Shown here in pieces: positions 1 through 64,000 of a stretch of DNA of 64,000 nt. Position numbers and translations under genes: made by a program. Every line of letters starts with the position of its first letter. Positions within the stretch are counted from its first letter, which is position 1. The stretch comes from Candidatus Absconditabacterales bacterium (GTDB taxonomy: Bacteria > Patescibacteriota > Gracilibacteria > Absconditabacterales > Absconditicoccaceae): NCBI GenBank assembly GCA_937923605.1, contig CALDTY010000011.1, positions 1 through 64,000 of the forward strand. The letters are read 5' to 3'. Below the pieces are notes generated by a model, which saw only the letters and a program-made list of their open reading frames with translations, was not told the origin of the DNA and did no database searches.

Positions 1-617
1 TCAGGTAGTCATGAGTATTTTTTCATGAGTAAATTCTTTGTTTCATCAGACACATTCAGGAAGATATTTACCATTTGATTATTTTGGGTTACATCATGCT
101 CAGGATTATTCTGATATCTTGGATCTCTATGTTGAAGCACCTTAAATGCTAGCTTTGAATCTCCTTTCCTGATAGCAGTATTTACTGTGAGTCTAGCGAG
201 GTTCAAATGACTACTTTTTCGTTTAGTAAATGTTGCACCTACTTCATCATCTAGCTTCAATTCATAATATTGTCTTCTCGTGATTCAGGCTACAATAAGG
301 GCATCTGTGACTGTTTGATCATAACCGAGTGCTGTCTTTAAGTGTGTGCAACGTATGAACGCTGTCTTTGGATCTTCTTCTATAAAATTGGGTTTATTCA
401 TCTCCTTTTTTCTTAGTTTTTTTCGCTTATCTTTATTTGATTCATGCAATCATAATGCTCGCATATCTTGGAGATCTAATTCAATGATTGGTACTCTTGT
501 CATTGAGTCTATATACATATAACTTAGGGGATTTTTTGGCAATGGAGCTTGTGCTGTTGATTTTAACACCACAGCCTTCTTTTTTCTCTTGCTCTTTGAT
601 TGTTTTTTCTTGACCAT
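1..617 (-). CDS. Phage terminase small-subunit-like protein (3' end beyond window)
   Basis: Code-25 reading MVKKKQSKSKRKK...TDALIVAGITRRQYYELK...IRKGDSKLAFKVLQHRDPRYQNN...; start codon at 615-617; extends off the left edge. Assignment by motif style and phage neighbours. Confidence 0.5.
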
Positions 618-620
618 TCA

Positions 621-1442
621 TTAGCTATATTTGGTAATAGTATCTCTCACTTTATCATAAGGCAGATTATACTTCTTTGCTATCTTTGTCATCATTCATC
701 GTTTACGCTTTGCTGTATTGTACTCTCTCATTATGATTGCTTCGATCTTGTTTTTTTGTTCTCTCCTAGCGACTTGCTTCGTGGTTTCAGTTCTGTAAGT
801 GTCTTGCATTTTTTGTAGCCAATTCCAGTAGTCTTGTGGGTTGAGATCCTCTAGTTTTATCACATGTTCAGGATCATCAGGATCGTCATAGCTCCTGAGT
901 CGTTGGAGTAGCTTCTCTCATGCTAGCTGAAACTTATAAGATTCACTCAATTGGTTTCTCTCATCTCTTTCAGGTAGATTGAGAGCTATCCATGGTGTTC
1001 CTATTACTGTCACTACTCATAGTGGTGTTTTTAGTTTTAGCATGCATGAGTCTATTAAGAGGCAAAACTACTCTGATAGTTCAAATATAGGTGCTAAAGC
1101 AAACAAATCTGTTGCGTGTAGTTCTGCTTCTATTTCAGGACTGATCTTTATCGCTCTTGGGAATCATTCAATAACTGTACCACGTAGATCATCTAGTTTT
1201 TTGTTTAACTTCTCTACTTTTTTGAATTTAGGTTTTCCTTGCTTATCTTCTCCATCTTTGTGTTGATCAAAAATCTCTTTTTCTAGCTTCAAGTAGACGA
1301 CCATCTCTTTTTCCATAGTTGGTAGGATTGCTACTGCTAGATGTCTTTTCTCTGAAGCAGGCAGTTTGTTCATGCCAGCTAATTTTGCAAGTCAGGAGCT
1401 AAAGTTTTTGTTAATGAGATGGTTGTAGGTAATAGTTTGCAT
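621..1442 (-). CDS. Hypothetical phage-associated protein, 273 aa
   Basis: Continuous only with TGA=Gly: MQTITYNHLINKNFSSGLAKLAGMNKLPASEKRHL...KVRDTITKYS*. Lies between methylase and terminase-like genes. Confidence 0.6.
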
Positions 1443-1483
1443 GGATATAATGAAGTGCTAAAAACTGCATGAATTGTTGTTTA

Positions 1484-2803
1484 TTACTTATCTACTGATT
1501 GCTTTCGTTTCTCTCGATTTTGGGTCTTACCGTTTATCGTTACTTCTTGCTTCTCTGTATACATCACATATCTCTCAATAATGGTTTCTATAAAGTGTGG
1601 ATCTAGTTCCATTCAGTAACATACCCTCCCTAGCTTCTCACAAGTGATGAGTGTCACACCTGATCACAAGAATAGATCTAGGACTACATCATCTGTTTTG
1701 GAGCTATTTGCTAATGCTATTTGGCAGAGTTGGACTGGTTTCTGTGTTGGGTGAACATACTCCTGCACATTATTTCTCCTCACGCTTCGTATGGTTGTCA
1801 TTCATTCTTTCTCAGCTTCTTTTGCTTTCTTTAGCATATTTAGAAGTTGCTGATCTGATTTGCTTTTCAGGATATCTCGTACGCTACTCTGTGATCTATC
1901 TCCATAGAATTCTGCTTTATATCACTTCATTGCACAGTAAAAGAAGAGTTCATGCTTTGGTCTGTAGTGTCCTGCTCAAAGTCAAAGTGATGGCTTATTT
2001 CGTATAATTTGCTGTTTAATCTCATACCCACTCTCCTCTAGTGCTTCTTGGAATGTGGTCTGTTCTTTGTGGTTATGGTAGATATAGCTTCCAGCTGATT
2101 GTTTTGTTACATTAATCATTGCCTTGAAGGCATCTCCTAAAAACTTCCTAAATGCAGAAGATTCCATCTTATCGTTCATGATTCAATCTTTGGTTGCTTC
2201 AGCATGTCCTTTGTAATCTACATTGTATGGTGGGTCTGTTCGTACGCAGTCTGCTTTGATCTTGTTCATTAGTGTTGATACCTCTTTACTCTTGGTGCTA
2301 TCTCAGCACATGATCTTATGTGGTCAGAGTTCAATAATATCTCATTTTTTTATCAATCAAAGCTTTACTATATGCACTACATCCTCTATTAGTTCTTTAT
2401 TAGCTTCATCAGAAAACAAAAATCACTTAAAAATCGATTTGGTTAGCTTTCTCAGGAACAGATCAGGACTATGTTCTATCTCCTTTGTCAGGTTTTCCAT
2501 ATCGTACTGACTATAGCTGGCTGTGAGGTTATCAATTACTCTACAGATCTTTTGTTGCTCCTCAGGCATTCCTGTGACAACGATTGCTGGAATTGTTGTC
2601 TTGCCTAGTTTCTTCATCGCTAGCCATCTACCGTGACCGTTTATGATCACGTTTTGTTCATTGATCTGAATTGGTGAGTAAAATCAATTTTGCTCTATAC
2701 TCTCCATGAGTGATCGCACGGTCTTGGTGTGATCTTTATTGTTATATGGGTATGGAGTCAGTTCATCAATTTTTGCTTGTATAAGCTTGAGTTTTTCTGC
2801 CAT
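1484..2803 (-). CDS. ParB-like nuclease domain plus DNA methyltransferase (phage-type DNA modification methylase), 439 aa
   Basis: MAEKLKLIQAKIDELTPYPYNNKDHTKTVRSLMESIEQNGFYSPI...VIINGHGRWLAMKKLG (ParB-N), then IIELGPHKIMCGDST...RTDPPYNVDY (DPPY) and LDLFLGSGVTL near the C-terminus; several TGA=Gly. Confidence 0.85.
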
Positions 2804-2819
2804 GGAATGGTGTTAAGGA

Positions 2820-3347
2820 TTAAAGGATGTTCATCTGGTCATCTACCTCTGCCAGCTGTGAGACGGTCTTGATAGCGTTTGCTACTTTAACAAGGTCACG
2901 GTAGCTTTCGTCCTGATCCTCATCTACATAGAACATGATTGGTTCTTTCCCTCACTCTAAGCTGAATGAGGTTTGATTTCCTTTCAGTTGGATCATCACA
3001 AGTTTGAAGATCATCTCCTTGTATCACTTCGTTCGATTGATGAGTCCTTGATAGATCTTCATGTACTTGCCGTATTTCTTTTCATCGTTCTTGTCTGGTG
3101 ATCCTAGTTGAGTTTCCAAGAACGCTATATCTTGTTTGATCTGCTTGTATGTTTCAGGATGAGTATCATCGTAGAACCTGAAAAGAAGAGTTTTCTTTGC
3201 ATAATGATCATAGATGAAGACATGAGTTTGGCTTGATAGCTCATCTTCACTATCTCTTGGAACATTTCTCGATTCAAAAAAGAGGTCGAGATCTCTCTTT
3301 GATTTGATGAGAAGAAGCATCTGGATGTACAACGGAGTGAATTTCAT
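2820..3347 (-). CDS. Hypothetical phage-associated protein, 175 aa
   Basis: MKFTPLYIQMLLLIKSKRDLDLFFESRNVPRDSEDE...MIFKLVMIQLKGNQTSFSLEGGKEPIMFYVDEDQDES...; open with TGA=Gly. Confidence 0.6.
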
Positions 3348-3370
3348 ACAACGAGAAAAAGAGCTAAAGA

Positions 3371-4063
3371 TTATTGAGCTTTAGTTTTCTTAATTTTTTC
3401 CATTTTTTTCTTTCGGTAGATGAGTAGTTCATCTATATCTCTCCCATAGATTTCTTTGATTTTATTGATTCTCAGGGATTTTTTTGCCTGCTTGAATAAT
3501 CTGTCATAGGTTCATACTCAATGTTTTATATCAATATTTTTTCTGTAGCTGTCCTTTGATTCCATATTTCCACAGGCATCTGCTTTGTTACATCAGTTAC
3601 ATCAAAGATTTATGTTATCAGGTTCAAATGCAGTCGCATTCCTTACTGAGGTGATACAGTGGCATCAGTTAGCAGATTTTCCGTCAATTGCCTTGCTGAT
3701 GTGCAATAAACAGGTACAGTAAATACAGTTCCCAAATCATTCTTTATTGGTATCCCTGTAAACTACATACTTCTGAATGATACGGAGGAGCTTCTTTTTT
3801 TTAGCACTATCACTCATCTTATGTTTTAGAATCTTCCCATCCATATGACCACGTTTCACAAGGTCGTTATTTCTCTGTCTATCCAACATTTTTACCCTTT
3901 TTTGTATTGCCTTGTCTTTCTTCCTCTCTCGCTTTGCTTGTACTCCTTGAATTTCTTTTTTACAAAAATCACTGTACCTAGTAGCTAGGTCAGTGATTGC
4001 TTGTGACACTTTTGTGTCATATAGTAAATTTATCTCTTGTGCTGTTTTGGAGCGTCTTCACAT
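3371..4063 (-). CDS. NinG/Rap-like phage recombination protein, 230 aa
   Basis: MGRRSKTAQEINLLYDTKVSQ...FGNCIYCTCLLHISKAIDGKSANGCHCITSVRNATAFEPDNINLGCNGCNKADACGNMESKDSYRKNIDIKHG...; Cys/His arrangement resembles NinG. Confidence 0.65.
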
Positions 4064-46127: not shown

Positions 46128-46667
46128 CTAACTATTCCTTCGTTTTCTTCTTTGTAATTCATCTCTTATACAAGTCGCTTTCTCATAATCTTCTTCATCC
46201 AATGACCCTTGTAAAATATAGGTCAGATGCTTCTCATCATAAGAAGATAAATCAAAATTTTCATTATCAAAAATAGACCTATCTGCAACTAAGATTATGC
46301 TAAATAGATAACCATAGATTAATGCAAATCTGACATCAACCTTGGTGATACATTTATCAATTCCTTTGATCTTAACTTTAGTATAAAATGAATTAGTTTC
46401 GACATCCTTTTGTAATTCAAAATATTCTATCTCTGCATCAAAAGCCTTTAGAATATCTGAGATCAACGAATATGGCTCAAAGAACAATTTTTCAAATGAT
46501 TCTGACTCAAAAAGATCATAATCATTAAAACAAGCATATAACATTTGAAGTTCATCCTTATCTAAGGCTACTTCAATACCTACATCAGATGTGCCTTCAA
46601 AAAGAAAACATTCATTAGGGACTTCTTCTTTGGTAGCAATAAGGCAATTAAGAATTACTTTTTTCAT
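46128..46667 (-). CDS. Bifunctional-nuclease (DUF151)-like protein with C-terminal UVR motif; TGA-free ORF
   Basis: ORF open in standard code; DVRFALIYGYLFSIILVADRSIF resembles BFN; UVR-type tail LQGSLDEEDYEKATCIRDELQRRKRR. 5 Gly, all GGN. Confidence 0.6.
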   Translation of the reverse strand: MKKVILNCLIATKEEVPNECFLFEGTSDVGIEVALDKDELQMLYACFNDYDLFESESFEKLFFEPYSLISDILKAFDAEIEYFELQKDVETNSFYTKVKIKGIDKCITKVDVRFALIYGYLFSIILVADRSIFDNENFDLSSYDEKHLTYILQGSLDEEDYEKATCIRDELQRRKRRNS

Positions 46668-46672
46668 AAGTA

Positions 46673-47209
46673 TTATTTCTTTGATTTAGATGTAATTAGA
46701 TCTCTAATAGTAGCTGCCTTTTCAAATTCATCATTATCAAGAGCCTTTTTAAGTAATTTTTTAAGATTCGATAACGACATTTTATTAATATCTTTAAGAT
46801 CAACTACTTCACTAGTAAGTTTAGATATTACTTCTTCATAGGCAGGAATAAGTCTATCATTCATAAAATTTGTATATGGTCCTGTCCAATACCCTTTTTC
46901 TTCTTCACTTTCAAGATCTTCAAAATTTTCCTGATAAGCTTCCCATTCACTTATATTCTTTTCAATCATACTTACTGACCTAAAATTTTCTGCATACTGA
47001 CTAATAGCTTTGTCACTAATATTTTGCATAGCGATTTCAGCCATTTCAAATTCACAGGCTTGTTCAAGTTTTTCTAAAAAATCATATGTTACCAGATATG
47101 AAATTTGTAAAGTACTCTTTAATTTTCTTTTTAGTGAGATCAAATAGAACTTCTCTAAATTTAATATTTGATCGTTGAGAAACATAGTTTGCATAGTACC
47201 AATGAACAT
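46673..47209 (-). CDS. UVR-motif-containing protein; TGA-free ORF (start uncertain)
   Basis: LKKLLKKALDNDEFEKAATIRDLITSKSKK tail parallels the downstream BFN-like gene; overlaps the upstream ORF by 128 bp, so the true start may be about 47.09 kb. Confidence 0.55.
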   Translation of the reverse strand: MFIGTMQTMFLNDQILNLEKFYLISLKRKLKSTLQISYLVTYDFLEKLEQACEFEMAEIAMQNISDKAISQYAENFRSVSMIEKNISEWEAYQENFEDLESEEEKGYWTGPYTNFMNDRLIPAYEEVISKLTSEVVDLKDINKMSLSNLKKLLKKALDNDEFEKAATIRDLITSKSKK

Positions 47210-47672
47210 TATTGGACATTAATTGGTTTTTTAATAAATCAATGATATCACTACAATAGTGTTCAATTTTATCAATTTGATTTTTCTTGACTGATTCATT
47301 AAATTTTTCAATCAAATCCATATATATTATAATATGCTTATAATGTACTAGGTAACAGATTGGTTTGTCAGAAAATTCAAAAGGTCCAGCATATTGTTTA
47401 TTACTTGGAGTGAAATATGAATGATGATATTTTGGTTGCTCATTTAAACCAAGTGCATCATATATATAATGATACCCATCTTCATTTATTCTAAGTTCAA
47501 TATTATAATCACCAATTTTTCTATCATAGTATGGTTCAGCTTTATTTATATAATATTTACCACAGTGAACATGTACAGAATGTCGGCGAATATATACTGT
47601 TGTACCAGGAACAATGTGACCAATTAATGGTAGTATTAAAACAGGATCAGATTTTTGTGTATCTTTCGTCAT
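47082..47672 (-). CDS. Hypothetical protein, 196 aa; TGA-free, terminating at TGA
   Basis: MTKDTQKSDPVLILPLIGHIVPGTTVYIRRHSVHVHCGKYY...TNFISGNI then TGA (plus strand tca 47082-47084); 8 Gly all GGN. Confidence 0.65.
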   Translation of the reverse strand: MTKDTQKSDPVLILPLIGHIVPGTTVYIRRHSVHVHCGKYYINKAEPYYDRKIGDYNIELRINEDGYHYIYDALGLNEQPKYHHSYFTPSNKQYAGPFEFSDKPICYLVHYKHIIIYMDLIEKFNESVKKNQIDKIEHYCSDIIDLLKNQLMSNNVHWYYANYVSQRSNIKFREVLFDLTKKKIKEYFTNFISGNI

Positions 47673-47689
47673 AGTTTATTTTTAGTATA

Positions 47690-48145
47690 TTATTTAATAG
47701 ATGCTTTGTGCATCATAACTTCTTTAGCAGATTTATAAAACATATCTGACACAAAAATTACATCAACTAATTGATTGACATAAGCCAATATAAGAACATC
47801 CTCTAAATGAATTTTATCAATTATTTTATTGTGACCAAAAACATAAGCATCACCAAAAACTTTCGTAAAAGAAACCGTAGGATCGTTCTTAAAATGACTG
47901 TACTCCGTAACAGATATAAAGTTTTTTAACAGTATATGATGTAATTTTTTATTCCATTTGGACCAAATACTGTTCAGTTGAAAAGCACCATCGCTCAGAT
48001 CTGTTTGGTTTGACAAAAGTAGTTCAGTAAGTTTATGAGTTGAATGAACTGGTAATTCAAACTCTACATTGTTTGGTAACATAAGATTAAAATAATATCC
48101 TCCTTGCTCACTTTCATAGAAAGTAAGATTATTCACTTGTATCAT
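47690..48145 (-). CDS. Hypothetical protein, 151 aa; TGA-free
   Basis: Open in standard code, TAA stop; 5 Gly all GGN. Confidence 0.65.
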   Translation of the reverse strand: MIQVNNLTFYESEQGGYYFNLMLPNNVEFELPVHSTHKLTELLLSNQTDLSDGAFQLNSIWSKWNKKLHHILLKNFISVTEYSHFKNDPTVSFTKVFGDAYVFGHNKIIDKIHLEDVLILAYVNQLVDVIFVSDMFYKSAKEVMMHKASIK

Positions 48146-48155
48146 AGAAATTGGT

Positions 48156-48623
48156 TTATTTTGCTTTAATGAAAACTTTTACATGCTTATGAATCATTCG
48201 GTACAATAAAACAAGATTAATGAGATCTGCCCCATTACTATGCTTCCATGTTTTCGACTTATTAACAGAAGCATTATCCGTTAAACTATACTGAATATAG
48301 TGAGCATCATTATGTTTTAAAACAATTTGTTCAAAAACAATATTCTCTTTTTTCTCAAAAAACTGTTTGAATAATGCTTTAGCTTTTGAGTTTGGTAAAT
48401 ACATTATACCCTTTCTATAACATTCATATTCTTGTTTCTGACCATTTGAAAATGGAATTTCGAGTTGATATTCAGAATTTTTGCATAAAAATCTTAACGC
48501 CATATCTGACATAAGATTGTTGTACGCAGAGCTATGCTCTTTTATTATTGATTTTTGTTTACTCATATCGTTAGTATTTTTTATAATTAACTGATTTTTT
48601 TTGATTTGAAAGATCTTACACAC
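48156..48623 (-). CDS. Hypothetical protein, 155 aa; TGA-free (start may be internal at MSKQKS)
   Basis: Open in standard code, TAA stop; 3 Gly all GGN. Confidence 0.6.
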   Translation of the reverse strand: MCKIFQIKKNQLIIKNTNDMSKQKSIIKEHSSAYNNLMSDMALRFLCKNSEYQLEIPFSNGQKQEYECYRKGIMYLPNSKAKALFKQFFEKKENIVFEQIVLKHNDAHYIQYSLTDNASVNKSKTWKHSNGADLINLVLLYRMIHKHVKVFIKAK

Positions 48624-52708: not shown

Positions 52709-53059
52709 TTAGTTACATGTAATCTCATCAAATTTTTCTTTCTGTGTTTCAGAAAGAAAGAATGTGTTTAATGTAATGTCAGCATCAATTTTGATTTGTA
52801 TAAAATGATTAACTAATGATATTGTGGCATTTCCAAGTTTTTGAGTAGTATTTTTTAGATAGATTCGTCTACGTTTAATAGGCTCAAATCTAAACCAATC
52901 ATACACTTTTGGTGATCGATTAAAATTCTTCTGAAATTCCTGAATAAAGTGCATAACCAACTGAAATGATTTACCATGATCAATATAGGTTACGGCAAAT
53001 TTTTTAAAATCATTCAGAAAGATTTTATCAGTATTTTCAGAAATGATGTGCTCATGCAT
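52709..53059 (-). CDS. Hypothetical protein, 116 aa; TGA-free
   Basis: Open in standard code, TAA stop; only 2 Gly, both GGN. Confidence 0.55.
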   Translation of the reverse strand: MHEHIISENTDKIFLNDFKKFAVTYIDHGKSFQLVMHFIQEFQKNFNRSPKVYDWFRFEPIKRRRIYLKNTTQKLGNATISLVNHFIQIKIDADITLNTFFLSETQKEKFDEITCN

Positions 53060-53069
53060 TCTTAGTTTT

Positions 53070-53813
53070 TTAGTTCTCTAATAAATAGTAAAAATCTCTC
53101 TTTTGCTTCGATCTTTTATCATGTTTATCTTGATTAAATTTATCATAAATCTCATTACTAATAGTGATATAGTTTAACGTGTAGTACTCAATAATATCAT
53201 CCTTAGCAATTAATACTGGAAATGAAGAATATACATCAGAAGAATATTCATATTCGAGATCAATTGTCTCATTTGGATACATATCTTGAAGCATTATTGT
53301 CCTATTTCTATCGGTTAAACCTATTAATTCACAATATTTTGATACATCATTAAGTAATAAAGAAAAACTTTTTCTACAATTGAAATGCAATGCCTCATAG
53401 TACGTACTAAAAGCAATCTGAGTAGTTAAATTAATAAGAATACAACAAACTACAAGAGCGCAAAACACTAAGTATCCAATTACTTTCAAAGGATTATCTT
53501 CAGTTTTATCACAATTATATATTAAACAAGCAATAAATAATAATGCAAAAATCACAATATACAGAAATACATGATGAACAATAATCTGTCTTCTTAGTTC
53601 CTCAAGACTATTTGTTGTTTGTTTTTCAGAACTATAAATTCTGATTGGTTTAAATGAATACTTCTTTTGATGATTATGCTTTCTATATGCAACAACAATA
53701 ACAAAACTTATTACTGCAATGAAAAATAACCATAAAACAGGTACATAATGGAATATCGTCATATCTATTTTTTTTGATTGAATTATATCTTCTTTGACTA
53801 TTAAATATCTCAT
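53070..53813 (-). CDS. Hypothetical membrane protein, 247 aa; TGA-free
   Basis: Open in standard code; TM segments VPVLWLFFIAVISFVIVVAY, VFLYIVIFALLFIACLIY, IGYLVFCALVVCCILINL; upstream TTGACA promoter-like sequence. Confidence 0.65.
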   Translation of the reverse strand: MRYLIVKEDIIQSKKIDMTIFHYVPVLWLFFIAVISFVIVVAYRKHNHQKKYSFKPIRIYSSEKQTTNSLEELRRQIIVHHVFLYIVIFALLFIACLIYNCDKTEDNPLKVIGYLVFCALVVCCILINLTTQIAFSTYYEALHFNCRKSFSLLLNDVSKYCELIGLTDRNRTIMLQDMYPNETIDLEYEYSSDVYSSFPVLIAKDDIIEYYTLNYITISNEIYDKFNQDKHDKRSKQKRDFYYLLEN

Positions 53814-56895: not shown

Positions 56896-57312
56896 ATGAA
56901 TTACGAAGGAAAAATTATTCAAATTCTAGCAGTGGAAACTATATCTACTTGATGATGAGATAGACAAAAACAAACAATTGTACTAGAAGAGAATAGAGAA
57001 TCAGAGTACAAATGATGAGTAGTAGTAGATTTTCGATGAGATAAGCTAAGCTTAATTAGTGATTTGAAGGTATGAGACATCGTTAACGTGTGACTCAATA
57101 GTAAAGCTAGAGAGTATAATGGAAGATGGTATAACTCGATTACATGATGGAAAATTGAAAAACAAGGTTGATGAACCTGATCATGACCTGCAGTGCCTCC
57201 TACAGCAACAACATGAGCTGCAGCACCAGCCGCTTGAATTGCAACAGAAAAGGTAGCTAATGCTGCTCCAGCACCAGCAACACAAGAATATGAAGACGAA
57301 CTACCCTTCTAA
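56896..57312 (+). CDS. DUF3127-like (OB-fold/ssDNA-binding-like) protein with Ala/Pro/Gly tail
   Basis: MNYEGKIIQILAVETISTGGGDRQKQTIVLEENRESEYKGGVVVDFRGDKLSLISDLKVGDIVNVGLNSKAREYNGRWYNSITGWKIEKQ; ends ...EDELPF*. Confidence 0.75.
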
Positions 57313-57336
57313 TTACTTTAACGTTGTGCTATAATT

Positions 57337-57365
57337 AAAAATGTCCCTATATAGGGACATTTTTA
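57337..57365. terminator. Terminator hairpin at the boundary into the large TGA-free island
   Basis: AAAAATGTCCCTatATAGGGACATTTTTA. Confidence 0.8.
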
Positions 57366-57461
57366 GTACTTAAGCTTGAAATATTGACATATATAACTAT
57401 ATATGTATGACAGTGTGACATAAATATCTGAATACAGAAAATGAACCTTAAAACTATATAA

Positions 57462-58571
57462 ATGGAACGAAAAATAGCATTAACCAGCGCATGGTTACTT
57501 ATATATGTAATAGTTACATGTATAATGATGAAACATAAAACTTATCTCTTTCTGAATTATGAAGTGATACATTGGTGGGAGTTGTTTACTACCATATATA
57601 TATTTGCTACATTTAGTTATGTAGTAAATCTTTGGAAACAAATATCTATTCTTATCACTCATACATTTTATGTGATAATGATTGCTCAATTATACTTTCT
57701 TGTGAAATATTGCTTTGTTCAAAGTATACAAAGTACGACATTTATGCAATCTCCTGTGTTCAAAATTGGATGTTTCATTGCATTGTTGATATACTTGTAC
57801 TTTGTGAAAAATCTTCTAGAGAAAGGAATAAAACAGATACCCTTATATAAGTTATTGCTTAAAAGAGTAGAAAAATCTGATACAACAAGAGACGATCAAG
57901 TTTTGAACACAATGGAAAAGTTGATTGATTTTATATTATCAATCATGTTATTTGTACTAGCAATAGTATTCACCTTTGGAGCTAAATCATCTATTGCATT
58001 ATATAGCACTGGTTTAGGTAGTATATTTGTTGTAATGATATCGTACTCATCAAGACATATTTTTAAGAATGGTATTTCTGGAGTAGTTATTTTTGCAAAA
58101 GATATTCTTAGAATTGGTGGTTCTATCACTTACAATGGCTCTAAGGGAGAAATAAAAGAAGTTGAACTTGGTCATATCATTCTTCAAAAAGATAGTGGTA
58201 CGACAATTAGAATACCAAGTGCTGGAATATTGGAAAATGGCTTTTCTAATCATATGAAAATAGATAGGAATGGATTCAATTTTCAAATTCCAATTGAAAA
58301 AAACCGATCTAAGATTGATCAGGCCCTCAAATCTATTGAATCACTACTTACAAAAAAATCAAAAGATTGGAATATCTTAGATAATACTGTTGAAGTAGTT
58401 GTGACAAAAATAGGTTTAAATTCAGTGACTATTGAAGCATCTTTCGATACTAGTGTTATGGAATTTGATAGACAGGTAGATAGTTCAAAGGAGAAAATTT
58501 CAAAGGACTTGGAACAAGAAAAGAAGATTCATAAAGAATTTATAATTAAAATAATAGAATTAAATTTGTAA
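57462..58571 (+). CDS. MscS-like mechanosensitive channel family protein, 369 aa; TGA-free
   Basis: Multi-TM N-term then MISYSSRHIFKNGISGVVIFAKDILRIGGSITYNGSKGEIKEVELGHIILQKDSGTTIRIPSAGILENGFSN; 17 Gly, none TGA. Confidence 0.8.
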   Translation: MERKIALTSAWLLIYVIVTCIMMKHKTYLFLNYEVIHWWELFTTIYIFATFSYVVNLWKQISILITHTFYVIMIAQLYFLVKYCFVQSIQSTTFMQSPVFKIGCFIALLIYLYFVKNLLEKGIKQIPLYKLLLKRVEKSDTTRDDQVLNTMEKLIDFILSIMLFVLAIVFTFGAKSSIALYSTGLGSIFVVMISYSSRHIFKNGISGVVIFAKDILRIGGSITYNGSKGEIKEVELGHIILQKDSGTTIRIPSAGILENGFSNHMKIDRNGFNFQIPIEKNRSKIDQALKSIESLLTKKSKDWNILDNTVEVVVTKIGLNSVTIEASFDTSVMEFDRQVDSSKEKISKDLEQEKKIHKEFIIKIIELNL

Positions 58572-58593
58572 ACAATAAAATAAACAAAAAAAA

Positions 58594-58980
58594 ATGATAA
58601 CTAAAATAGTAATACTACTTGCCCAACAAGCATTTTTAGATGGTATATTGACCTTTATAAAAAGAAAATATGTCACTAAAGCACTGAAAGCTAATGCAAC
58701 CTTAAAGTTTGAAGCGACTAAGGAAACTGCGATGAAAGCTATAGAAGATATTTATACTGAATCAGCTGGGAATATTGAAAAATTTCAGTCTGAACTACAA
58801 AAATTCTATCTCAAACATATGAAAGAAATCTATGGAGAAGCTAACAGTACAGAGTTAAAAGATGTGTTCAGTATTACATTTGAAAGCTATAAGGAATTGT
58901 GGTCTGATATACATGAAAATCTAGAGACATACGTAGAAAAAATATCTACATTTTTCGATTTCACAAAACGAATAAAGTAA
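58594..58980 (+). CDS. Hypothetical protein, 128 aa; TGA-free
   Basis: MITKIVILLAQQAFLDGILTFIKRKYVTKALKANATLKFEATKETAMKAIEDIYTES...; between MscS-like and DUF389 genes. Confidence 0.6.
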   Translation: MITKIVILLAQQAFLDGILTFIKRKYVTKALKANATLKFEATKETAMKAIEDIYTESAGNIEKFQSELQKFYLKHMKEIYGEANSTELKDVFSITFESYKELWSDIHENLETYVEKISTFFDFTKRIK

Positions 58981-58981
58981 A

Positions 58982-60385
58982 TTGATATGGAGAAAAAGAG
59001 TACTCATCAAGAAAAAGCTGAACCAGAAGATTTCCTACATACTATCAAAGTGGAATAAAGCCTTTGAAATATTCTTAGATGATCCTAGGGATTGGTTACA
59101 AGAATGGATAGAATTACGGAGAGAAGATAATGCTAAAAAAAAGATCATTAGTAATATTGTTCATAATGGTACAAAATTCCGTGGTGAACGATTTATAATG
59201 GTACTTGTTGCAGCATTATTTGCAGCTGGTGGATTGTATAAAGACAACTGGGCTTATACTATAGGTAGCATGCTAGCTAGTCCTATGATGTATGCTATTA
59301 TCGGCATTGCATACGCATTGTATGCATTTGACGATGATACGTTCTGGGGTTCTTTTAAGTCATTTATGATACAGTTTGCTATTGGTTTAGGTCTCTCATT
59401 TTGCTTCTTTAGCATTATGTCATTAAACATACCTACTGATGCGCTTTGGGCTAGAACCTACCCTGATGCAATTGATTTGAGTATAGCATTTGCTGGTGGG
59501 TTACTAGGAATATTAGCAAGTATGCATGCAGATAAGATTTCATTAGCAACCGTGGTAGCTGCAGTAGCAATTGGGACATCATTGATGCCACCAATTTGTA
59601 CTATAGGATATGGTTTAGCGACGGGACAACATATTTTTATCTGGGATGCATTTTGGCTATTTGTGATAAATACTGTCATGATTATGCTCGCTAGTATTCT
59701 TATGATATATATTACAGAATTACCAAAGAAACAAGGTATTAGTAAAAATAAACAATTTGTTTATGGTTTAATTGTTTGTGTTGGGATTGTGATCGCAATA
59801 ATAAACTCATTACAAGTTGCTAACTACGAATCAAATAAAGGAGAAATACATACTCTAGTACAAACTGTCTTAAAAGACAAAGGTAGAATGACTAGTTTAG
59901 ATATTAACCATCATCAACAATTTGTAGATGGATTCATGGTAACTAATCCCCTTGTAACTGATACATTATGGAGAGCTTTGGAACAAGAAATAAGTTTAAT
60001 TGTTCCAGATTATGATGTCAAAATTACACAAGTTGCACAGCATCATAAAGATGATAGGATTTCAAGTTTTGCAAAACAACAGAATGAGGAACTTTCTTCA
60101 TTACGGTCACAATTGAAACTTTCTCTGAAAGAAAGGTCTGATATGAAACGGCAAAATGAATATAGAGACTCAATATATACAATAATTCCATCGATGCTTC
60201 GTAGAAGCATACAAAACATTGAAGGAGTAAATGTTGTTAGTTTACAACCTGAAGGAGTTGATTCAATATCTTATGCTGCATTAGTAAAATATGCACCAAA
60301 AAATTGGAAATCAAAAGTACGGATTGAGAACGATTTGGATAGCTTATCACTTAGGTTTCCTAAACTAAGCATTTCGAAATTTTAA
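58982..60385 (+). CDS. DUF389-family membrane protein; TGA-free (5' end uncertain)
   Basis: NGTKFRGERFIMVLVAALFAAGGLYKDNWAYTIGSMLASPMMYAIIGIAYAL...AFAGGLLGILASMHADKISLATVVAAVAIGTSLMPPICTIGYGLATGQ; 24 Gly, none TGA; ORF would need a TTG start. Confidence 0.78.
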   Translation: MIWRKRVLIKKKLNQKISYILSKWNKAFEIFLDDPRDWLQEWIELRREDNAKKKIISNIVHNGTKFRGERFIMVLVAALFAAGGLYKDNWAYTIGSMLASPMMYAIIGIAYALYAFDDDTFWGSFKSFMIQFAIGLGLSFCFFSIMSLNIPTDALWARTYPDAIDLSIAFAGGLLGILASMHADKISLATVVAAVAIGTSLMPPICTIGYGLATGQHIFIWDAFWLFVINTVMIMLASILMIYITELPKKQGISKNKQFVYGLIVCVGIVIAIINSLQVANYESNKGEIHTLVQTVLKDKGRMTSLDINHHQQFVDGFMVTNPLVTDTLWRALEQEISLIVPDYDVKITQVAQHHKDDRISSFAKQQNEELSSLRSQLKLSLKERSDMKRQNEYRDSIYTIIPSMLRRSIQNIEGVNVVSLQPEGVDSISYAALVKYAPKNWKSKVRIENDLDSLSLRFPKLSISKF

Positions 60386-60399
60386 TTTATTAATGTATA

Positions 60400-60433
60400 A
60401 AAAAAGGCTTGGCATAATTTGCCAGGCCTTTTT
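60400..60433. terminator. Bidirectional terminator between convergent TGA-free genes
   Basis: AAAAAGGCTTGGCAtaattTGCCAGGCCTTTTT. Confidence 0.75.
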
Positions 60434-60454
60434 ACTTATTTAATATTAAATAAC

Positions 60455-61052
60455 TTATAACCAAGGAGAGAACATTCCTACTCTTTCCATATAACCTTCA
60501 TAAGCATCATGAAGTTCTTTCATTTGCATTTCTTCAAGTTTGCAAGTTATATACCAAAGTGGGATAAATAATCCCAATATGATAAACCAAGTCGAAGAAA
60601 AGTAAATTAAACCCAGTCCTCCTAGTAGCAAATACATGCTCACATACATAGGAAACATAGGTAGGGCCTTCCAATTGCGTTACATAGTCATGACTATCAG
60701 TAGTAAAGTTATCAGTCCCAAGCTTTGGAAAAAATATATCTACATTATCCATAGTGTATTCTGCACTATCGTTCCTAAAAGGAGGTATAGTAAAATTATT
60801 ATTGAAAGAATTCACCTTTGCAGTCAATAGATTCCATATTCTACCAAATCGTTTCTTACTGTAATGCATCTTATATCCAATCACTGGATACAGCACAATA
60901 AGAAGAAATGAACCTATCGATGCTATGTGTAGTTGTATATGCTCAGTCATCTTAAACATACTTATCACTAAGAATATGATAGCTGAAGATCTTATTAACA
61001 TCATTTTTAGATGTAAATCTTTAATCTCATTAAATTCGTTAACTTGGTTCAT
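60455..61052 (-). pseudogene. ICMT/PEMT-type membrane methyltransferase-like gene split across two frames
   Basis: 5' frame ORF 60534-61052 and 3' frame ORF 60455-60658 overlap out of frame; the 3' frame supplies FPMYVSMYLLLGGLGLIYFSSTWFIILGLFIPLWYITCKLEEMQMKELHDAYEGYMERVGMFSPWL. Confidence 0.55.
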
Positions 61053-61560
61053 ATACTAATTTTTTTGTGTGAGTATGATCTACTACCCCTGGAACGACTT
61101 TATCTTTGTTCCAAAAGCAGTAGGGAATATTATGTTTAATAAGAATTTCTTTAATCTGCTCTCCTCCGATACATCTTATAGTATCAAGAGGAAGTTTCTC
61201 AGTACAACAATGTACAAAAGAAGAATGAAAGTGCGAATGAAATTTATCCTTAACGAACTTATTCAGTTCAAGAAGTAATTTTTCCTTTTTCACAATATCT
61301 AATGCTAAACCACATGCTGTTTGATATAATTTTACTATACAAAGCAATTCAAGCTTACTTTCAATGCCCAAGAGAAAAAGATATTTCTCCTTCTTAGATA
61401 GTGAAGATGTAAAGACAAAATCTTTTAGGTCCGTGCTTGACTTAGATATGCTATCTTTTATAGACTTAGCTGCATAAAATATTGTTATAGCTGCCATACT
61501 TACCGTAGTTGATATTGCGACAATAATACACATTTCAAGTATTTTATCTGATAATTCCAT
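61039..61560 (-). CDS. Paralogous membrane-anchored protein, member A; TGA-free
   Basis: N-term TM; CIVKLYQTACGLAL ... RCIGGEQIKEILIKHNIPYCFWNKDKVVPGVVDHTH. Confidence 0.72.
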   Translation of the reverse strand: MELSDKILEMCIIVAISTTVSMAAITIFYAAKSIKDSISKSSTDLKDFVFTSSLSKKEKYLFLLGIESKLELLCIVKLYQTACGLALDIVKKEKLLLELNKFVKDKFHSHFHSSFVHCCTEKLPLDTIRCIGGEQIKEILIKHNIPYCFWNKDKVVPGVVDHTHTKKLVYEPS

Positions 61561-61590
61561 GTACTAATTTTTTCGTTTTAATAATGATTT

Positions 61591-62505
61591 TTAAAATCCT
61601 AAGTATTCAAGTATAGTTACTCTTCCTTTCCAGAAATCGCCTTTATTTGCAACTCCTTCTTTAGAAAAAGCTCCATACTCTAGCACTTCAATCTTTTTTC
61701 CGTTAAGTAACTTCAATTCTATAAAGTTTCTCAGGCCTGCTCTTCCTACAAATTTTTTCTCAACATTCTGTATAACCCCAGATATCTTTATACATCTAAA
61801 GTATAAAAAAATCATAAAGATAAATACACATGTAATGAAAATGAATGCAGGAGTTGGTAAATGCATCTCAGACTTTGGATAACGGTAGACATGAAGCACC
61901 ATAGAATACAGAAGAATAATTGGTGTAAATTTTACTATCTCTCCAAATATTCCAGTACTTGTAGATACGTACCGTTGAGACTCCTCTATTACTCCTGGTA
62001 AGATTTGATCTTCTCTCCAAAAGAAATAAGGTATCTCAAGATCATTTACTATCTCTTTCACTTGCGCTCCGCCAATACAATCTACAGACTCTATTGATAA
62101 GTTTTCCGTAGTACAAGCTAACTTGACTCTTAGGTGCTGAGATACAAAAACATCATTTACATATGCATCTAGTTGCTTAAGAATCCGTCTCTTTTTATCC
62201 AGTGGCATAGAGCTTGCACATGCTGCTTGATATAACTTCTTAATATATACTAGCCTTAAGCCCTTTGTTCTCCCTATCAAAAAGAGAATTTTGACATTAA
62301 TAGGTAGAAATGAACTATAGATGTACTTTCGAAACTCAGATGTTGTATGTAAGTGATTTTCTCTTACCTCTCTTAAATATATAAATGAAAAGATACATAC
62401 ACAACATACTATAGCAGTTATCGTTCCAATTATAATTCCTCCAATAATTTGTGATAATAACATATTTTTAAATTTAATTTGCTTATATAATAATATCTTT
62501 TGCAT
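61591..62505 (-). CDS. Paralogous membrane protein, member B; TGA-free (start probably MLLSQ, about 62463)
   Basis: RTKGLRLVYIKKLYQAACASSM ... DCIGGAQVKEIVNDLEIPYFFWREDQILPGVIEESQ; extra C-terminal TM segments and domain. Confidence 0.72.
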   Translation of the reverse strand: MQKILLYKQIKFKNMLLSQIIGGIIIGTITAIVCCVCIFSFIYLREVRENHLHTTSEFRKYIYSSFLPINVKILFLIGRTKGLRLVYIKKLYQAACASSMPLDKKRRILKQLDAYVNDVFVSQHLRVKLACTTENLSIESVDCIGGAQVKEIVNDLEIPYFFWREDQILPGVIEESQRYVSTSTGIFGEIVKFTPIILLYSMVLHVYRYPKSEMHLPTPAFIFITCVFIFMIFLYFRCIKISGVIQNVEKKFVGRAGLRNFIELKLLNGKKIEVLEYGAFSKEGVANKGDFWKGRVTILEYLGF

Positions 62506-62674
62506 AAACTGTTATCCCACACTTTCTTGCCTCTCTAGCTAGATCAGCATTACTCAGTTTATTTACTAGAGAACGAACCCATTTTTTAAAATCCTTACCT
62601 ATAGTATCCATATGTAGTCCATGGTATCCCCAGGTGACTCTCATAATTTCGTCGACTATATCAATTTTTTTCAT
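62483..62674 (-). CDS. Small hypothetical protein, 63 aa; TGA-free
   Basis: MKKIDIVDEIMRVTWGYHGLHMDTIGKDFKKWVRSLVNKLSNADLAREARKCGITVYAKDIII*. Confidence 0.45.
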   Translation of the reverse strand: MKKIDIVDEIMRVTWGYHGLHMDTIGKDFKKWVRSLVNKLSNADLAREARKCGITVYAKDIII

Positions 62675-62677
62675 TGT

Positions 62678-63370
62678 TTATTGGTTTAGTTGTTTTTTAA
62701 TTTGATCTACCTTAATTTTAGTCAGTTGTATATCTCTCCCAATAGCCTTTAGATCATTATCTAGAAACTCTTTGTTCCAAAGATATGAAGGAATTGTATG
62801 TATTCGAATAAAACTCTCTTGATACTCTGGCTCAAAACAATCAAGCGAAGATAAAAATTCTATATCCCAAATTTCCCCAGGACAATCTTCTAACCTAATC
62901 ATATTAGGGATATAGTAACTCTGGAAATAATCATGTATATCGATATAGAGTTGCTTTTTATTTGATGTACATGGTACAAAGTAAGTAAGATGAAATAATT
63001 TTTGCAAATATACATCATCTACATTGATACCTAAACCAAAAATAAGTCCAATTTTTATATGTAACGGCGCAGGCAGTTTCCATATGATTTTTCTCATGTT
63101 TGGATAACATCTTCTCAATCTATAGGATATAGAATGTTGAAAATCCTTAATCTTCAACGTACCAATAATCAAAACAAAGATAAATATTGCTACCACTACA
63201 AAATAATACAGGGTATACAAATTTAAATCTTTTGGATATAGAGATCCGTCTGTAAATTCTTCTGGTGCAAATTGTCTCATCACAAATGAGACAAGACACA
63301 TAATGAATGCATACATAGGTATCCACCAATACTCACTAATAATTTTTCTCATGTTAACTGATAATTCCAT
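62678..63370 (-). CDS. Diverged paralog, member C (two TM segments); TGA-free
   Basis: LGINVDDVYLQKLFHLTYFVP ... FIRIHTIPSYLWNKEFLDNDLKAI matches the family layout; overlaps member D stop by 17 bp. Confidence 0.62.
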   Translation of the reverse strand: MELSVNMRKIISEYWWIPMYAFIMCLVSFVMRQFAPEEFTDGSLYPKDLNLYTLYYFVVVAIFIFVLIIGTLKIKDFQHSISYRLRRCYPNMRKIIWKLPAPLHIKIGLIFGLGINVDDVYLQKLFHLTYFVPCTSNKKQLYIDIHDYFQSYYIPNMIRLEDCPGEIWDIEFLSSLDCFEPEYQESFIRIHTIPSYLWNKEFLDNDLKAIGRDIQLTKIKVDQIKKQLNQ

Positions 63371-63953
63371 GTGCTCTACTTTTTTTTACGTTATCAAATA
63401 GTGTTACTGTTTCTTCAACTCCATTAACTAAATCGCCAGCTTTCCAAAAGAAATTTGGCACTCGTACTTTTTTAACCAGAGTCATAATATGATCTCCACC
63501 AAGACATTCCAAGTCATTTCTTTTAATTTTTCTAATTTGCTCTTCACGAGACGCTTGGGTAGCCATTTTATAATGATGGTTTAAATTATTGATGATATAG
63601 TTCTGTAGTAATGCAAAAAGTAATAATCTATTGTCATCTTCTAATTCTATCAAACAAGCAGTTTGATAAAGTTGCTTAATATACATCATCTTCAATCCTT
63701 TTCGTTGACCAGTATAAAACTTCCATTTAATATTCTGTGGCATCGTACTTGCTTCGACGAAACATCTAAGCGCCTTATATCTTGGGCTATATATTGTTAC
63801 AAAAGCCTTGAGATAAGGGTATAAGATAATTAATAAAATTGTTGCAGCTACACACTGCAGGGTAATTGTTAGATAGTTCATATGATTATAATTATATTTT
63901 TTTATTAATAGTTTATTAACAAGAAAAATGTAAGAAATGAGCATACATTTCAT
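63354..63953 (-). CDS. Paralogous membrane-anchored protein, member D; TGA-free (start probably MNYLT)
   Basis: RKGLKMMYIKQLYQTACLIEL ... ECLGGDHIMTLVKKVRVPNFFWKAGDLVNGVEETV. Confidence 0.72.
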   Translation of the reverse strand: MKCMLISYIFLVNKLLIKKYNYNHMNYLTITLQCVAATILLIILYPYLKAFVTIYSPRYKALRCFVEASTMPQNIKWKFYTGQRKGLKMMYIKQLYQTACLIELEDDNRLLLFALLQNYIINNLNHHYKMATQASREEQIRKIKRNDLECLGGDHIMTLVKKVRVPNFFWKAGDLVNGVEETVTLFDNVKKSRAHGIIS

Positions 63954-63974
63954 GTCTTTTTCTATTAATGAAGA

Positions 63975-63993
63975 TTGTCAAAATTATTGACAA
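63975..63993. promoter_or_regulatory. Perfect inverted repeat, possible operator/promoter element
   Basis: TTGTCAA-aatta-TTGACAA upstream of the member D start and at the window edge. Confidence 0.4.
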
Positions 63994-64000
63994 ATGTCGT

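Follow-up and report, generated by a model that had tools for sequence, protein, structure and literature searches.

Blocks of genes free of TGA glycine codons point to a probable recent import of standard-code DNA into a UGA=Gly Absconditabacterales genome

Results

A TGA-free gene island at the end of the window

The window analysed here is a stretch of 64,000 nucleotides of contig C11, which ends at position 64,627 and belongs to a 1.31-Mb draft genome (G000; 34 contigs, 83.5% complete) of a Candidatus Absconditabacterales bacterium. The last native gene of the window (56896-57312) has 15 of its 18 glycines encoded by TGA and is followed by a perfect, terminator-like inverted repeat (57336..57365, plus strand). 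A TTGACA element (57384..57389, plus strand) then precedes the first gene of an island that occupies positions 57462-63953. The right border of this island lies off the contig, as the block reaches the contig end.

On the plus strand, the island encodes a MscS-like mechanosensitive channel of 369 aa (57462..58571; Pfam PF00924, E 1e-7; 17 GGN and no TGA codons for glycine), a small uncharacterised protein of 128 aa (58594..58980; 3 GGN, no TGA), and a DUF389 membrane protein of 467 aa (58982..60385; PF04087, E 2e-27; 24 GGN, no TGA), with a terminator-like hairpin 3' of the DUF389 gene (60401..60433). The remaining genes are on the minus strand. A gene for a PEMT-like membrane methyltransferase (60432..61052) is frameshifted near 60.66 kb and split into ORFs 60534-61052 and 60455-60658, the latter of which matches PF04191 (PEMT) at E 0.0025. 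Its three apparent TGA codons all fall behind the frameshift, and the sequence would be compatible with either a pseudogene or an assembly indel. It is accompanied by an array of four paralogues recognised by alignment, i.e., member 1 (61039..61560; 173 aa, 5 GGN), member 2 (61591..62505; 304 aa, 19 GGN), the most divergent member 3 (62678..63370; 230 aa, 7 GGN), and member 4 (63354..63953; 199 aa, 7 GGN), and by a small ORF of 63 aa (62483..62674; 4 GGN), none of which contains an in-frame TGA. The structure model of array member 2 is helical and membrane-anchored, with a low confidence (pLDDT 59) that was too weak for a structure search. The island probably adds envelope functions, namely a mechanosensitive channel and a DUF389 membrane protein, together with a membrane-anchored paralogue array of uncharacterised role.

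The window contains no tRNA genes, and PADLOC identified no defence genes. Phage structural or replication genes were not found for the island by Pfam, by PHROGs (one gene), or by searches against phages and IMG/VR. Derivation of the whole island from a known phage was rejected because the window proteins had no informative matches in phages or IMG/VR.

Opposite 800-odd TGA codons of G000, two congeners show glycine 391 times, TGA 276 times, and serine, the next most frequent, 28 times. Conserved glycines are hence spelled TGA, as fits a UGA=Gly (code 25) genome; tRNA-Gly(UCA) was not seen in the scanned half of the genome. Native genes use TGA for 66-75% of their glycines, and reduced TGA use is found in ribosomal-protein genes (L027) and in a highly expressed EF-Tu-like gene (7 of 39 glycines, a fraction of 0.18). 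Across the seven scorable ORFs of the island, about 90 glycines are encoded by GGN and none by TGA, an outcome with a probability of ~1e-39 if the native TGA fraction applied, and of still ~1e-7 under the low EF-Tu-like fraction. Our recount reproduced the 17 and 24 TGA-free glycines counted by hand in the MscS-like and DUF389 genes, and the original prediction that chance could not plausibly account for the missing TGA was borne out. Its statement that every ORF from 57462 onwards is open in the standard code holds for the seven scorable ORFs, but not for the frameshift-split gene at 60432-61052. At the opposite end of the window, positions 1-4063 have a GC content of 0.36-0.39, above that of the rest of the native window, and a TGA fraction of mostly 0.3-0.5, below it.

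TGA-free blocks are scattered across the genome

The survey of per-gene TGA fractions that had been proposed as a check was carried out on ~660 kb, i.e., about half of G000, with 530 testable genes (at least five scorable glycines). Exactly zero TGA was found in 70 of these, compared to ~3 expected under an overdispersed null model. The distribution is bimodal and discontinuous, with 73 genes below a fraction of 0.1 (70 of them at zero), five at 0.1-0.2, then 16 and 22 in the following classes, and a native mode at 0.6-0.8. The zero-TGA genes form 44 blocks that make up 10% of the sampled bases, have a median size of 0.8 kb (largest, 7.7 kb), comprise one to about seven genes, and are scattered between native genes; TGA-rich genes flank 34 of the 44 blocks on both sides. 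TGA-free genes are clustered, with 32 adjacent pairs versus 11.4 after shuffling. What had been described as a single island is instead one of at least 44 TGA-free blocks in the genome. Likewise, the genes at 1-57.3 kb are generally interrupted by TGA as first described, except for two further blocks on the minus strand, both with TGA-rich genes on either side: one of four to five small genes, including one with a UVR motif (46128..48623), and one with genes for a 116-aa protein and a 247-aa membrane protein (52709..53813), which has only two GGN per gene and is weak taken alone.

TGA-free genes end in TAA or TAG in 88 cases and in TGA, with short read-through tails, in about four. Depletion of TGA stops was dropped as proof of selection because AT-rich Bacteroidota have the same share of TGA stops. 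A TTGAC...TATA promoter type is enriched in G000, with TTGAC upstream of 23 of 32 TGA-free genes versus 35 of 135 native genes; the Bacteroidota promoter motif TAnnTTTG is not enriched upstream of the TGA-free genes of G000. Four of eight tRNA genes directly adjoin TGA-free blocks (L021:7028, L028:5358, L209:7818, L209:12298) and a fifth (L034:3716) adjoins an ORF that has 10 GGN and then a TGA stop, a hint at tRNA-linked integration with marginal statistics (p 0.05-0.17). Mobility genes were not recognised in the blocks examined.

Relatives, empty sites, and phylogeny

Among the 59-99 relatives searched, the MscS-like and DUF389 proteins of the island have distant homologues only, and the paralogue array has a single marginal match (E 0.003) and no convincing homologue. 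A relative more than 50% identical was not found for any island protein. More generally, a search of a sample of relatives gave matches for 1 of 94 TGA-free genes versus 106 of 436 native ones. Empty sites that match the block borders were identified in congener G003 for two single-gene insertions, both in blocks other than the window island (L210:2631-3500 and L210:6109-7515); there, the native neighbours adjoin each other across a gene-free gap of 130-140 bases. A third slot (L023:5758-6321 / L155:15842-16387), which is occupied by unrelated TGA-free membrane-protein genes in two congeners, is an insertion hot spot. TGA-free, Bacteroidota-like proteins are also encoded in the one-contig relative G013 (L141:11529-13136, 45 GGN; L141:4300-5124, 9 GGN), showing that the pattern goes beyond the draft genome of G000.

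These data bear on the possibility that standard-code DNA was misjoined to the contig by chimeric assembly or entered through bin contamination. The island does extend to a contig end in a draft genome of 34 contigs. However, the 34 doubly flanked blocks (two of them in the window), the absence of Ns, the congener empty sites, and the TGA-free genes of the one-contig relative all speak against an artefact, which we consider hardly credible; a chimeric contig is rejected by the doubly flanked blocks and the empty sites. It would be somewhat less far-fetched, yet still very improbable, that native genes avoid TGA owing to their expression level or regulation, e.g., as a regulon for conditions of poor UGA decoding. 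Such avoidance would agree with the lower TGA use of EF-Tu-like and ribosomal-protein genes and with the promoter type common to TGA-free genes, but even the EF-Tu-like gene retains TGA, and the TGA-free genes are mostly missing from relatives and phylogenetically foreign where they could be placed.

The genome has a DUF389 gene of its own (contig C3, 19 TGA) that groups with those of congeners (support 100/99). The island DUF389 is instead located on the Bacteroidota side of the tree on a long branch, and its grouping with the code-25 clade was rejected (AU p=0.008); tree and AU test rule out that it is a duplicate of the genome's own gene. As the first contig scan for DUF389 used a biased, Bacteroidota-based profile, a balanced search was added, which returned Bacteroidota at E 6e-37 to 2e-29, Pseudomonadota at 9e-26, and Bacillota at 9e-13. 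Judged by these sequence comparisons, a Bacteroidota-type origin of the island DUF389 appears favoured. PurK, encoded in a block on contig C4, is nested within Bacteroidota (support 100/100) and is 43-46% identical to Bacteroidota, 38% to Bacillota, and 30-34% to Pseudomonadota homologues.

Contents of other blocks

The PurK gene is part of a TGA-free operon, purK-purC-purE-pyrE/F-unknown-pyrD-pyrC (L027:18036-20000 and L209:8-7727; contig C4, 58.0-66.7 kb), that ends beside a tRNA-Thr gene; through this operon, an epibiont-type genome has imported genes for de novo nucleotide synthesis. The names purE, pyrE/F, pyrD, and pyrC, and aconitase and VWA below, were read off the protein sequences without a family search. 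A TGA-free ABC transporter/OmpA cassette (L020:353-6382, contig C1) has the gene order of the 462-kb phage LR756500 (24-52% identity), with two genes of the cassette also matched in Bacillus phage G; its OmpA protein has no match in IMG/VR. In another TGA-free block (L024:13666-19138, contig C3), a VWA-like protein adjoins PurA, a pair found side by side in Rhizobium phages and two IMG/VR phage contigs as well. By gene order and similarity, some blocks look like jumbo-phage cassettes. A TGA-free aconitase gene with 50 glycines (L212:11700-19923, contig C1), the similarities of which do not separate a Bacteroidota from a Pseudomonadota origin, lies beside three genes with TGA at 14/36, 10/33, and 2/14 glycines; these intermediate genes may be older imports in transition. 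Further blocks contain an aldehyde dehydrogenase with two SLOG genes, outer-membrane-type barrels, and lipoproteins. A Bacteroidota-type origin, which the original prediction had suggested checking first, holds for PurK and is favoured for DUF389, but other blocks are jumbo-phage-like and no close donor was found.

Age and codon usage of TGA-free genes

In orthologues compared between G000 and G003 (69% identity), kappa is 0.115 for the TGA/GGN state and 0.078 for the S/W state of fourfold degenerate third bases, i.e., TGA and GGN replace each other almost as quickly as third bases change. With no TGA at ~1,148 glycines of TGA-free genes, their residence is bounded to less than 0.34% of the genus divergence time, if TGA is neutral. 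The small number of genes with TGA fractions of 0.02-0.2 then implies either that imports arrive at a high rate and are quickly lost, or that they came in a burst.

Codon-usage distances (excluding Gly, Trp, and Met) were computed against native genes and 112 foreign sets, mainly of Bacteroidota and relatives and a few phages. The pooled TGA-free genes are at a distance of 0.189 from native genes, with equal-size native subsets at 0.135 +- 0.026. The nearest foreign set, a congener, is at 0.357, and the surveyed standard-code AT-rich genomes are at 0.5 or more. Native usage best explains 28 of 56 TGA-free and 177 of 363 native genes, and a hand-checked list of 34 genes agrees. The GGN codons are likewise used in similar proportions in TGA-free (0.465/0.095/0.097/0.343) and native genes (0.466/0.077/0.103/0.355). 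Conversely, two TGA-free genes of congener G002 do not match G002 codon usage (n=2). Assuming that TGA is neutral, strict amelioration in place is ruled out: the codon keeps pace with third-base turnover and, without selection, would have built up in step. Near-native usage without TGA hence leaves either an unsampled donor pool of the same usage or purging of TGA.

Discussion

Here, we provide evidence that the block at 57.4-64 kb is one of many TGA-free segments of a code-25 genome, and we consider recent import of standard-code genes their probable source. Absence from close relatives together with empty sites (the latter at two other blocks) and phylogenies incongruent with the species (island DUF389, PurK of another block) are features of laterally acquired islands; composition, in contrast, is anomalous in glycine coding only. 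In a donor that reads TGA as stop, glycine would be spelled by GGN only. As GGN still encodes glycine in the recipient, imported genes would be readable at once, and those ending in TGA would gain just a short tail. Imports from standard-code organisms never use UGA as a sense codon, so that zero UGA serves as an intrinsic label for DNA acquired recently. Arrival would have been recent, given that GGN changes to TGA at roughly the rate of third-base turnover, and the scarcity of transitional genes suggests a high flux in which most imports may be lost before TGA accumulates. Donors might include AT-rich Bacteroidota-like bacteria and large phages outside the sampled collections, and an unsampled AT-rich donor pool is the favoured source. 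The transfer of standard-code genes preferred in the original prediction is supported by the foreign island proteins, the congener empty sites, and the doubly flanked blocks; close code-25 homologues with TGA at these glycines were not found, and the doubly flanked blocks rule out a chimeric contig. The G002 genes with usage unlike G002 are as expected of unameliorated imports. However, no surveyed standard-code genome matches the usage of the TGA-free genes of G000, which requires an unsampled donor of fortuitously similar usage.

The alternative of selection against TGA, raised at the outset, survives as a minority view, as near-native non-glycine codon usage is not predicted by plain recent transfer. 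It is intriguing to propose a bilingual mobile gene pool that resides mostly in UGA=Gly bacteria yet is translated time and again in standard-code cells, where sense TGA is purged; phages or plasmids that shuttle between epibiont and host could be its carriers. Such a pool would account for near-native non-glycine usage with no TGA in ~1,148 glycines, for GGN proportions almost equal to those of native genes, for the few transitional genes, and for the phage-like cassettes among the blocks, and TGA-free phages targeted by Gracilibacteria are a published precedent (PMC10746230). Nevertheless, TGA stops have been retained at a frequency typical of AT-rich donors, the TGA-free genes of G002 (only two) lack G002 usage, the examined blocks yielded no recognisable mobility genes, and functions such as aconitase and the pur/pyr operon belong to ordinary metabolism. 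We rank recent import above the bilingual pool because of the deviating usage of the G002 genes and the persistence of TGA stops, and regard the pool as unlikely. If anything slightly less likely is a permanent bilingual compartment, in which about a tenth of the chromosome would be kept UGA-free by selection while circulating between epibionts and standard-code cells, with its other codons adapted to the epibiont.

Code reassignment is often held to isolate genomes from foreign genes. The genome studied here is recoded and carries ~10% standard-code DNA, with the reassigned codon serving as internal mark and clock of import. The zero-TGA mark flags orphan imports that are invisible to phylogeny and sets a limit to their age; it could also help to trace the donors and hosts of uncultured epibionts. 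The near-native codon usage seen in the imports is a testable puzzle. In the literature searched, which did not include the first SR1 UGA=Gly paper, we came across no account of TGA-free blocks of such extent in a chromosome or of their application as a clock, and priority is not certain.

Several known systems share features with these blocks. Phages of Gracilibacteria/Absconditabacteria compatible with code 11, i.e., TGA-free, have been described, whereas prophages were reported as code 25 (PMC10746230). Like the blocks, these phages have genes without in-frame TGA that can be translated in a UGA=Gly bacterium, and some TGA stops with a second stop nearby; unlike them, the blocks are chromosomal, occur at dozens of sites, and consist mostly of non-phage genes. 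Compared to phage LR756500 and Bacillus phage G, the ABC transporter/OmpA cassette (L020:353-6382) is located in a bacterial chromosome and is TGA-free, yet has the codon usage of the recipient. The island DUF389 shares domain and tree position with Bacteroidota DUF389/TIGR00341 proteins, but is only 24-39% identical to them and sits on a long branch. In Vampirococcus (Absconditabacteria), 126 horizontally acquired genes were reported (PMC8080830). There, too, diverse bacterial donors contributed to a UGA=Gly genome, but the imports were detected by phylogeny, while those described here are marked by zero TGA, include orphans, and are dated by TGA turnover.
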